This document shows positions 1,568 to 5,192 of a DNA stretch of 42,232 nt, piece by piece. Source of the stretch: Candidatus Coatesiibacteriota bacterium (GTDB lineage: Bacteria; RBG-13-66-14; B26-G2; WVWN01); the NCBI GenBank assembly GCA_020356085.1, contig CP070633.1, positions 1,687,352-1,729,583 of the forward strand, written 5' to 3'. The translations under genes and the position numbers were made by a program. Numbering within the stretch: position 1 is the stretch's first letter; the number at the start of each line of letters is the position of its first letter. The notes beneath the pieces are model-generated. The model saw only the letters and a program-made list of their open reading frames with translations. It did not search any database and was not told the DNA's origin.

Positions 1568-2311
1568 ATGAAGAAGTTCGTGATTCTTATCCTTTGCGTC
1601 GTCGGCGCTACGTCGGCCTCCGCCTTCCCGCGGGTGGTTCTGGGCGAGCTCGTAACGTCTACCTCTTGAGCGACGTGCCCGGCTGCGGAGGCGCAGCTGC
1701 ATCGAATTTACACGAATAACCCCACTAGGTTCGCGCCGATAGAGTACCATCCGAGGTGGGGTGGATTGGGCCCCTTTAGGAATGTCGACTCGGACGTGCG
1801 GTGTTCATATTACGGGATAACGGTTACGCCGACGGCCGTCTTCGACGGCACCGTGACCACTCAACACTATAATACTTGGCCTACTCTCTTCAACCAGCGG
1901 AAGAACGTCCCCAGCCCCCTCGAGATTAAATTGAAGATAACGACGGCGGGCTCCAATTTCACCGTCAAGGCTACGCTAAGGAGGCAAGGCACGATGGCGA
2001 GTTCGGGCCTTCGGTTTTACGTAGCTCTGACGGAACAGAAGCTGAGTTATAACAGCCTCCTTTATCACCACGTCCTCCGTAAGATGTACCCCAACGCCAA
2101 CGGAACGACGTTCACGATCAATAACAACGAGACCAAGCAAATCAACGTTAACGGCCAGCTGAACAGCGCCTGGAACCAGAATAACCTCCACGTCGTCGTG
2201 TGGGTTCAGAATTTCCAAACCAAAGCGGTGTACCAGGCGCGGTTGGCGAAGTGGGACGAAGTCGCGGTCGAACCCGTCTCCGTGGGCCGGATTAAGGGTT
2301 TGTTTTACTGA
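1568..2311 (+). CDS. Candidate selenoprotein: secreted thioredoxin-fold, Omp28-like protein with in-frame TGA (Sec) in a UxxC motif
   Basis: The ATG at 1568 has a good Shine-Dalgarno (AAGGAG, 1554-1559). It opens a frame with a signal peptide (MKKFVILILCVVGATSASA), then GELVTSTS, TGA at 1667-1669 (codon 34), then ATCPAAEAQLHRIY and open reading to a TGA at 2309-2311. That is 247 residues if codon 34 is read. In thioredoxin-fold Omp28-related proteins this place reads roughly T-x-x-C-x-x-C-P, so the TGA sits on the first redox Cys and yields U-A-T-C-P. Downstream family features remain intact: IEYHPRW, GPFRN, YYGITVTPTAVFDGT (cis-Pro region) and a beta-rich C-terminal half with VQNFQTKAVYQA. 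Sequence quality on both sides of the TGA argues against decay. The gene is monocistronic with its own promoter and terminator. Starting downstream of the TGA (a TTG around 1766) would lose the signal peptide and active site. Alternatives are a Cys-to-stop mutation or a sequencing error. Confidence 0.8.
1667..1699 (+). promoter_or_regulatory. Putative bacterial SECIS element (UGA plus hairpin)
   Basis: Directly after the in-frame TGA (1667-1669), bases 1680-1687 (CGGCTGCG) pair with 1692-1699 (CGCAGCTG): eight consecutive pairs, one of them G-U, closing a GAGG tetraloop at 1688-1691. The loop starts 18 bases after the TGA and begins with G. Both fit the published bacterial SECIS pattern (loop about 16-37 bases downstream, a G among the first two loop bases). 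The hairpin lies inside the coding frame, as in other bacterial selenoprotein mRNAs. No folding energy was computed. Confidence 0.65.
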
Positions 2312-2357: not shown

Positions 2358-2382
2358 GGGCGGCCCGGAGCCGCCCTTTTTT
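2358..2382 (+). terminator. Rho-independent terminator after the selenoprotein gene
   Basis: GGGCGGC/GCCGCCC form a seven-pair stem with a five-base loop, followed by six T. The T run overlaps the stop codon of the convergent acr3 gene. Confidence 0.85.
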
Positions 2383-3439
2383 AATCAACGCGGGGGAGGG
2401 GGCGCCACCGTCGCTTAAACCACAACGCTACGTTAACGAGGCTTATTAATACGGGGACCTCGACCAGGGGGCCAATAACGGCGGCGAAGGCCGCCCCCGA
2501 GTTCAAACCGAAAACGGCTACGGCCACGGCGATGGCGAGTTCGAAGTTGTTGGAGGCCGCGGTGAAAGAGAGCGTCGTCGCCTGTGGGTAAGAGGCGCCG
2601 GCCCACTTGCTCATAGCGAAGGATAAGAGGAACATAACGACGAAGTAGATAACCAGGGGGACCGCGATGCGGACGACGTCGAGCGGAATCGCGACGATGT
2701 ATTGCCCCTTCAGCGAGAACATAACGACGATCGTGAAGAGCAGCGCCGCCGGCGTTATCGGCGCGAGGCGGGGTACTATTTTAGCTTCGTACCACTCGCG
2801 GCCCTTGAATCGGAGGAACGCGAACCGCGTGATAATCCCGGCTAAGAACGGGACTCCTAAGTATATAAAAACGCTCTCCGCAATTTGGCCGATAGTCACG
2901 TCGACCTCGGTCCCGTGCAGGCCCAGGAGGGGCGGCACGACGGTGAGGAAGAAGTACGCGTAGACCGAGTAGAAAAAAACCTGGAACAGCGAGTTTAGCG
3001 CGACGAGCCCCGCCGCGTATTCGGCGTCGCCGCCGGCGAGGTCGTTCCAGACGATGACCATCGCGATGCACCGCGCGAGGCCGATCAGAACCAGGCCGAC
3101 CATGTACTCGTGGAAACCTCGGAGAAACAGGACCGCGAGGGCGAACATGAGTATAGGCCCTAATACCCAGTTTTGAAATAGCGAGAGACCTAGGATCTTT
3201 ACGTTCCGGAAGACCCGGCCCATTTCCTCGTAACGGACTTTCGCCAGCGGCGGGTACATCATCAGGATTAGGCCCGCGGCAATCGGAATCGACGTCGTGC
3301 CGACGCTGAACCGCCCCAGGAGGTCGGCGAGCTGGGGGAAAACGTAACCCGCGCCCACGCCGGCGGCCATGGCCGCGAATATCCACAGCGTAAGGAAGCG
3401 GTCGAAAAAGCTGAGCGTTTTGGCGCGCGGGGAGGGCAT
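2381..3439 (-). CDS. acr3: ACR3-family arsenite efflux permease
   Basis: The product is a 352-residue integral membrane protein with about ten hydrophobic segments, the usual size for ACR3 of the bile/arsenite/riboflavin transporter (BART) superfamily. Diagnostic stretches are seen: [21 protein letters not shown] near residues 52-72, and [19 protein letters not shown] near 140, which holds the conserved transport Cys. The C-terminal half contains [18 protein letters not shown] and [10 protein letters not shown], also typical of ACR3. It exports As(III) driven by the proton motive force (family knowledge). It is the last gene of arsR-thioredoxin-acr3, about 50 bases after the thioredoxin gene, which supports arsenic resistance and ArsR control. 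Confidence 0.93.
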
Positions 3440-3489
3440 CAGCGATTACCTGCCTTGGGAGCGTGCGTCGTATCTGCAGAGGGTAGTTA

Positions 3490-3741
3490 TTATTCCTCGG
3501 CGGCGTAATACTGCCGGAGGATGGCTTTGGCGCGGGCGCGCGTGGGTACTTGGCCGTGCAGGACCACCTCGCCGTTAACGGCCACCGCGGGCGTCGCCAT
3601 AATGCCGCGTTCGGCGATCGTCGCGACGTCGGTAACGTGTTGGATGTCCGCCGGGATTTCCAGCTCCGCGGCCGCGTTGATCATCGTCCGAAACGTCTCC
3701 TCGCAGCGCGGGCACCCCGGCCCAAAGATTTCGACTTTCAT
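3490..3741 (-). CDS. Small CxxC thioredoxin-like protein of the ars operon
   Basis: This 83-residue protein is a minimal thioredoxin/glutaredoxin fold: MKVEIFGPGCPRC puts the redox pair at C10 and C13, and MATPAVAVNGEVV supplies the cis-Pro loop and following strand. It matches the 'redox-active disulfide protein 2' / MTH895-type thioredoxins, often found next to ArsR regulators and metal permeases. A strong Shine-Dalgarno (GGAGG) overlaps the arsR stop codon region, so the two genes are probably translationally coupled. Likely role: electron donor for arsenate reduction or thiol maintenance in arsenic stress. That role is inferred, and no arsC is seen in this window. Confidence 0.88.
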   Translation of the reverse strand: MKVEIFGPGCPRCEETFRTMINAAAELEIPADIQHVTDVATIAERGIMATPAVAVNGEVVLHGQVPTRARAKAILRQYYAAEE

Positions 3742-3753
3742 TGGCGTTTCCTC

Positions 3754-4119
3754 CTACGGCTTCGAACTCCGGCCGCAACTACTAATTCGTTGCCGGTCCG
3801 CGCGGCGCAGGGCGCGGATGTCGCGTTGGAGGGAGGGTGCGTGCTGCGCGAGCGCCGCTACGATTTCGTGGAACGGACGGGCCACGGACGAGGTGGTGAG
3901 TAGATATTCGGTAAAGGGGCCGGCAGGGCGGCTCTCGACCAAGCCGACCTGGCGGAGATAGCGCAAGTGGCGAGAGAGGTTAGGTTGGTTCAAGGACAGC
4001 GCCTCCGCCAACTCGCACACGCATGCGGGCTGCGACGAGAGTACCGCCATAATGCGAAGGCGATTGGGTTCGCCCAGCGCTTTGAAAATATCGGTTGTAG
4101 AGTTAACGTTTATTACCAT
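3754..4119 (-). CDS. arsR: ArsR/SmtB-family arsenic-responsive repressor
   Basis: The 121-residue protein has the ArsR winged helix: FKALGEPNRLRIMAVL, then ACVCELAEALSLNQPNLSRHLRYLRQVGLVESR. The CVC pair at the start of the recognition region matches the As(III) ligands of ArsR (CxC on the DNA-binding helix). Additional Cys-Gly residues near the C-terminus could add a ligand, but this is unproven. It should repress its own operon and leave DNA when arsenite binds. The only reasonable start is the ATG at 4119-4117, which overlaps the operator-like palindrome. There is no Shine-Dalgarno, so the leader must be very short or absent. Confidence 0.92.
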   Translation of the reverse strand: MVINVNSTTDIFKALGEPNRLRIMAVLSSQPACVCELAEALSLNQPNLSRHLRYLRQVGLVESRPAGPFTEYLLTTSSVARPFHEIVAALAQHAPSLQRDIRALRRADRQRISSCGRSSKP

Positions 4120-4180: not shown

Positions 4181-4768
4181 TTAGGAGGGAAAGTTTACGC
4201 CGGTCGCGTGCGCGACGGCCCACATCGCGGCGCCGGAGGCGAGGGGAACTGAGAAGTTGTCGAACCAGCCGGGGCTCAGGAGCTCGGCCGCGGCCGCGAC
4301 GCCCGCGCCCACTAGAGCCAGTTTCCATCCCACGAAATACCACCCGACGACGAAGCACACCGCTAAGCACGCTAGCGTGCCGGCCAACGTCTTGTCGGCG
4401 CGGAGGCGGAAACCGCCGAGGCGGCGGCCGACTATCCCCGCCGCGGCGTCGCCCAGCGCCAGGAATGCCATCGCCACGAAGGCGAGGGTACGCGGGAAGA
4501 GGAGGAGCGTTAGGAAAGTCGCCCCCAAAAAGGGAATAGTGGCGTTGAGGCGGCGGAATTCCTCCTCCCGCATCAGTACGCGGAATACAGCCGTAAACGC
4601 CCGCGCGACGACGGCGAAGCGGAAGCGTAGGATTTCGAGCACGACCGCGCCGGCCGTTATGACGGCGACGATAAGGAGGACCGTCGGCCGCGACAAAGCG
4701 CCGAAGTAATAGGCGGCGGGTAAAACCAATCCCAGAAGGTGCCAGCTCTTGCGGAGGTATACGTTCAT
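4181..4768 (-). CDS. Dolichol kinase / phytol kinase-like CTP-dependent lipid kinase family membrane protein
   Basis: I start this gene at the ATG at 4768 (195 residues), because MNVYLRKSWHLLGLVLPAAYYFG is the typical opening of the SEC59/DGK1/VTE5 family (R-K-x-x-H in front of the first membrane helix). Upstream sequence in this frame looks non-coding. The family core FLALGDAAAGIVGRRLG, followed by RADKTLAGTLA, lies at about residues 105-140 and matches the G-D-x-x-A...G-R...K-T-x-E/A-G signature of CTP-dependent polyprenol or diacylglycerol kinases. About six hydrophobic helices are present. The substrate cannot be told from sequence; phosphorylation of an isoprenoid alcohol or diacylglycerol is likely. 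It is divergent from the 98-residue gene at 4896 and has no obvious Shine-Dalgarno. Confidence 0.75.
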   Translation of the reverse strand: MNVYLRKSWHLLGLVLPAAYYFGALSRPTVLLIVAVITAGAVVLEILRFRFAVVARAFTAVFRVLMREEEFRRLNATIPFLGATFLTLLLFPRTLAFVAMAFLALGDAAAGIVGRRLGGFRLRADKTLAGTLACLAVCFVVGWYFVGWKLALVGAGVAAAAELLSPGWFDNFSVPLASGAAMWAVAHATGVNFPS

Positions 4769-4895
4769 TACGAAGCGGCCCCCGGCCGCTGCCCGGAGGG
4801 CCGCGAGAAGCCGGGCGAAGTTTAATATACCAGCGGCGGCGCGGCCAGCTAAAAATAGCGCCTCCGCCCATTTTGTGTTACAATCGCCGCCGCGT

Positions 4896-5192
4896 ATGAC
4901 GGAATTCGTAGGCATAGCGAAGATGTTGCCGGTTTTGGAGGAGGAGGACGTCGAGCGGCTCCTTACGTACGTGGAGGACCTCGACGACGTCGGCGCGCGC
5001 TTCGACGAGTTGATGGACTTCATCGAGGCCGAACGCCCCGACCTCCGCAGCGTCGTGGCCGCCATTGCGCGGTCGTATTCCGACGCCGGCGAGGCGACGG
5101 TCGAAAACGTCACGACCGCGCTCCTCACGTTCCTCCTCCTAATGGATCGGGCGTGGACGGACTTCTACGGCGACGCCTGGCCGGTACGTTAA
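4896..5192 (+). CDS. Small acidic protein of unknown function upstream of gltX
   Basis: A 98-residue frame begins MTEFVGIAKMLPVLEEEDVERLL. I prefer this ATG to the longer frame from 4749, which overlaps the divergent kinase gene and is Arg/Ala-rich like a shadow frame. A TACAAT (-10 like) at 4879-4884 lies just upstream, but no clear -35 was found. The protein is strongly acidic and predicted helical, without Cys or membrane segments. It ends 12 bases before gltX, so it is probably co-transcribed. I do not recognise a family. Confidence 0.6.
   Translation: MTEFVGIAKMLPVLEEEDVERLLTYVEDLDDVGARFDELMDFIEAERPDLRSVVAAIARSYSDAGEATVENVTTALLTFLLLMDRAWTDFYGDAWPVR

Follow-up and report, generated by a model that had tools for sequence, protein, structure and literature searches.

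Among described selenoproteins, the closest relatives of the gene analysed here belong to GOS_C. The Global Ocean Sampling analysis of 2008 introduced it as one of seven new families; it has a thioredoxin-like fold and comprised 74 Sec and 312 Cys sequences (PMC2398784). The 2026 catalogue lists it as NF045500, "hypothetical protein GOS_C", with a UxxC motif (PMC13188914), and NCBIfam carries the same model as "Omp28-related selenoprotein". The first-pass annotation of our locus had suggested a new selenoprotein family in a class that is not well known; since NF045500/GOS_C was already catalogued, the family of the window gene is not new. Both are Omp28-related, thioredoxin-like and secreted, with a single Sec in UxxC and with existing Cys homologues. 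All five paralogues of the source genome match NF045500 (best E 2.8e-20), the window protein with 42.8 bits (E 4.2e-11, profile positions 34-270 of 377) against a cut-off of 200 bits, above which no NF045500 match was found in 145 genomes. Further, it is a stand-alone protein of 247 aa with an xSLGRVKALF-type tail, whereas the NF045500 model spans 377 positions. Because the score lies far under the cut-off and the C-terminus differs, the window protein is, judged by its sequence, a divergent variant of the Omp28-related selenoprotein/GOS_C class that is not filed as NF045500. It contains the Omp28 domain PF11551 above cut-off but scores below that of the Omp28 family outer membrane lipoproteins (NF033782, 49.9 vs 150 bits). 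Its thioredoxin-like N-terminus resembles DUF1223 (PF06764; 2axo, Atu2684), where the redox motif ELFTSQGCASCP of 2axo aligns with ELVTSTSUATCP, but 2axo has Cys and the score is 30.3 bits against a gathering score of 30.7. Similar UxxC chemistry would be expected of other Sec thioredoxin-fold families (Trx, DsbA-like, DsbG-like, Prx-like; PMC13188914), which are separate sequence families.

The gene lies in a window of 42,232 nucleotides (the whole stretch of DNA that was analysed) at 1568-2311 on the plus strand, as do all its features given below, with ATG at 1568, stop TGA at 2309-2311 and 247 codons. As the first-pass annotation had claimed, a single in-frame TGA interrupts an otherwise intact frame: codon 34 (U34, 1667-1669) takes the first position of the CxxC motif and gives U-A-T-C-P in the context GELVTSTS-U-ATCPAAEAQL. 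The other elements claimed for the gene were recovered as well, with one reservation. Residues 1-19 (1568-1624) form a signal-peptide-like N-terminus, MKKFVILILCVVGATSASA, with a predicted cleavage site, and hydrophobic equivalents occur in all paralogues. A putative ribosome binding site, AAGGAGAGG, was read from the sequence at 1555-1563, preceded by a promoter-like TTGCAA-17-TATCAT (1499-1527) that is a consensus match only, the shuffled region averaging 0.4. The thioredoxin-like N-terminal domain (1625-1870, limits approximate) has profile matches across CxxC to 2axo (DUF1223) and to the archaeal thioredoxin 1fo5, and the downstream family blocks are intact, with PF11551 at 1805-2245 (64 bits vs a gathering threshold of 34.9, E=1.9e-17). 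The last element of the protein is a C-terminal tail, VEPVSVGRIKGLFY (2267-2308). The reservation concerns the terminator: a hairpin with a T-run at 2355-2384, between the gene and convergent ars genes, folds at -18.8 kcal/mol, yet it is absent from the list of a terminator scan of the region. A structure model from three sequences (mean pLDDT 51.5) matched HBP35 (5y1a) and, for the Omp28 domain, that of P. gingivalis (2r2c); since the model is poor, these PDB matches are supporting only.

We consider it about 95% probable that the window gene encodes a secreted redox protein whose active site contains selenocysteine. Machinery, homologues and hairpin all agree with this reading, which the first-pass annotation had put forward for a secreted, Omp28-like thioredoxin-fold protein with UxxC. 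From the features of sequence and structure, the UGA at 1667-1669 would be decoded by tRNA-Sec and SelB, aided by the hairpin just 3' of it, and the product would be exported as a thioredoxin-fold/Omp28 protein whose active-site UxxC starts with Sec. Fold and motif suggest that Sec most likely makes the nucleophilic attack, with Cys 37, three residues on, as the resolving thiol. The reaction, taking place outside the cytoplasm, would most likely be thiol/disulfide exchange or reductive chemistry, and the tail most likely targets the product to the surface of the cell or beyond.

Downstream of the gene, acr3, an ArsE-type thioredoxin gene and arsR occupy window positions 2381-4119 on the minus strand, convergent with the selenoprotein gene (ACR3: TIGR00832, 450.6 bits). 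The UxxC of an inserted Sec might alternatively serve metal or metalloid (arsenic) handling instead of disulfide catalysis, a possibility that we regard as unlikely but as the strongest competitor. It draws on these convergent neighbours and on their persistence in relatives, as ACR3 adjoins the selenoprotein gene in three congeners (G001, G002, G003) and the ArsE-type gene is retained in two of them (G001, G002) while the other flank varies. Against it, the genes are convergent with a terminator in between, the linkage was not seen in G004, linkage within one genus could be plain inheritance, and no ars genes were found in the partly annotated flanks that were inspected around the other four paralogues. 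The ars neighbourhood gives no more than a hint of a link to arsenic, and a selenocysteine-dependent thiol/disulfide oxidoreductase remains our preferred reading.

The evidence that the TGA is read as Sec comes in large part from homologues. Four further paralogues were found in the source genome (at least five copies in total), including a tandem pair (C1:362036-363681). Each has exactly one TGA, again at this codon (CELFTATWUGYCPYA, AELFTATWUTYCPWA, VELFSGIPUSYCHWA and VEHFGWTSUGSCPAA). Its recurrence in five paralogues argues that the TGA is not due to chance, and as the four are only 30-38% identical to the window protein, the codon must have been retained across a long divergence. Two orthologues (L095 and L096, 73% and 65% identical to the window protein) are likewise open through the same TGA. 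Searching 145 genomes with a profile of the five paralogues detected the family in 33 of them. Profile position 35 is TGA in 45 genes, Cys in 22 full-length genes and another residue in a few; two Omp28-type rows that are truncated duplicates are omitted from the counts. The first-pass annotation had proposed such an alignment and expected Cys at this column if Sec was genuine, and unrelated residues if not; relatives have mainly Sec or Cys. With all hits in the 33 genomes placed on the profile, no internal TGA occurred elsewhere in the family, two TGA marks near profile positions 231-232 lying at the domain end in genes with an active-site Cys. For a single observation in a MAG-like assembly taken by itself, one might invoke an error of sequencing or assembly, or a Cys gene with a recent nonsense mutation. 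Such an explanation has practically no chance of being correct, because the TGA recurs at one column, in four further paralogues as well as in orthologues that come from independent assemblies; orthologues with 65-73% identity keep the frame beyond it.

At least one TGA copy is present in 24 of the 145 genomes searched, and within one genus orthologues that have TGA in one case and TGC in the other at this codon are 82-87% identical (87% for the pair from G010 and G007). On the tree, the U/C label probably changes at least 12 times, with at least five changes forced by well-supported branches. Repeated exchange between Sec and Cys is typical for genuine selenoprotein families. Two genomes, G118 and G115, hold clusters of Omp28-type genes (L065/L078, L066, L070, L072) with both TGA and Cys copies in one genome, and these clusters also include copies with neither Sec nor Cys at the active site (N..C, S..S).

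The source genome (G000; one contig, 2.34 Mb, estimated completeness 78%) possesses the complete machinery for Sec insertion. The first-pass annotation had held that absence of selA, selB, selD and tRNA-Sec would refute its claim; all four are present, with selA at 413 bits, selB and a Sec-type selD above cut-off, and a tRNA-Sec at 67 bits, which ARAGORN calls SeC with anticodon tca. The selD gene (L023, G000:C1:955614-956534, minus strand) itself has an in-frame TGA, in U-A-A-K, and UxxK is a known site of Sec-type SelD (PMC13188914). Across genomes, selB was found in 23 of the 24 with a TGA copy compared with 49 of 121 others (Fisher p 1.9e-7), and in five of nine family-bearing genomes without any TGA copy. 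The sole U genome without selB is G010, which has three TGA genes (L047, L081, L090); in its assembly of 420 contigs no selA or selB reached the cut-off, which may reflect an incomplete assembly or recent loss. UGA also serves as an ordinary stop elsewhere in the window, as had been claimed, terminating six of the 25 main ORFs as well as the selenoprotein gene itself. Although several genes show UGA read-through, reassignment of the codon or its reading by an ordinary suppressor (e.g. as Trp or Gly) in this lineage is extremely improbable given these TGA stops, the confinement of the family's internal TGA to the UxxC position with Cys in homologues, and the complete Sec machinery. A possible split gene at 4257-5192 was considered as a further Sec case and yielded no evidence for it, its stops being TAA and TAG.

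Just past the TGA, a bacterial SECIS-like hairpin is predicted at 1671-1704 (plus strand), with the apical loop GAGG at 1688-1691, 18 nt past the TGA, and a fold energy of -16.6 kcal/mol, calculated from the first 40 nt starting at the TGA. It fits the published bSECIS model (loop of 3-9 nt, G in the first two positions, spacing of 16-37 nt, at most -7.5 kcal/mol; PMC13188914). In our own implementation of the model, 41 of 45 TGA genes fit compared with 13 of 22 Cys genes (p 0.006). The model is loose, and 54% of dinucleotide shuffles also pass, so that this control is weak by itself. A stricter control was obtained by redrawing synonymous codons with the protein held fixed, which replaced a count of covariation because the stems, by inspection, are offset by one base between paralogues. 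Hairpins of TGA genes were more stable than their synonymous recodings (mean z -1.09, Wilcoxon 1.3e-7), whereas those of Cys genes were not (mean z -0.21, p 0.29; TGA vs Cys difference p 0.0024). The excess stability in TGA but not in Cys genes suggests that, where the codon is TGA and nowhere else, the RNA fold is under a constraint that goes beyond the encoded protein. The window gene shows the same effect individually (z -2.1, p 0.013), while the paralogues L002 and L004 have no hairpin beyond codon expectation in this control.

The C-terminal tail extends far beyond the Omp28-type proteins. All five paralogues end in versions of P-x-S-[LV]-G-R-[VI]-K-[AG]-L-[FY]-x (the last residues of L002 are masked), and the source genome contains 84 matches to GR[IV]K[AG]L[FY], compared with zero for the reversed control. 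Omp28 homologues of other lineages differ in this respect, with longer C-termini in place of the tail and, in some, NPFN-type domains. In a sample of 30 tail loci (L097-L126), nearly all readable ORFs stop exactly one residue past the motif and most tail-bearing ORFs have a signal-like N-terminus. With the tail removed, 27 proteins of the sample fell into nine unrelated groups, including NHL propellers, CBM96/DNRLRE proteins and a Temptin-like domain. With a more relaxed pattern, into which the stop codon was built, 134 occurrences were counted in the source genome. The counts were 112-179 in each of three congeners, 23-32 in three further genomes from the same order and class, and 20 in a single genome from another phylum, with approximately background numbers in most other genomes. 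These properties point to the tail as a candidate sorting or attachment signal. A literature search on the motif letters returned nothing, which is weak evidence of novelty since papers seldom print sequences in their text.

Among the tail-bearing proteins of the source genome, outside the window, are three tandem secreted right-handed beta-helix proteins (L103/L127; G000:C1:189983-192479, minus strand; domain PF13229) with an in-frame TGA in C-P-G-U-G-G-G-T-W, mostly CPGUGGG[ST]W across members. A search with a profile of two members found 14 in seven of the 145 genomes (homologues L128-L140): three in the source genome and the rest in its genus, its order and, from other phyla, the genomes G115 and G117. 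All 14 have exactly one TGA. It always occupies the same alignment column and is preceded, three residues earlier, by an invariant Cys. All seven genomes have selB. The hairpins past the TGA, with a loop that is usually AGUU or AGUUUC, exceeded their synonymous recodings in average stability (mean z -1.30, Wilcoxon p 0.0026); four of the 14 members lack such a hairpin by the criteria applied. No hit in the 145 genomes has Cys at the TGA column, and in this one respect the case for Sec is weaker than in the Omp28-type family, as it comes without a Cys homologue. The family is absent from the 2026 catalogue (PMC13188914), and a literature search was likewise negative. The beta-helix CxxU proteins probably represent a new selenoprotein family.

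For the window gene itself, the annotation is corrected, as a standard gene caller would cut short or split 1568-2311. Moreover, the Omp28-related class is broader and more divergent than the curated model, with TGA copies in 24 of 145 genomes and repeated exchange between Sec and Cys, and a genome that carries five or more such paralogues offers a favourable setting for studying what Sec does outside the cytoplasm. We lean slightly towards a joint interpretation for this lineage, close relatives of which have been deposited as Candidatus Zixiibacteriota: it would export an expanded set of selenoproteins, comprising at least five UxxC proteins of Omp28 type and three tandem beta-helix CxxU proteins of an uncatalogued family, and these, together with other genes (approximately 130 in all), share or apparently share one tail at the C-terminus, which would act as the signal for a surface or secretion pathway that has yet to be described. 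If the tail holds up, a single C-terminal signature would be common to many unrelated secreted proteins. If the beta-helix proteins hold up likewise, there would be a selenoprotein family built on a beta-helix scaffold with CxxU, and these side results would then outweigh the window gene.
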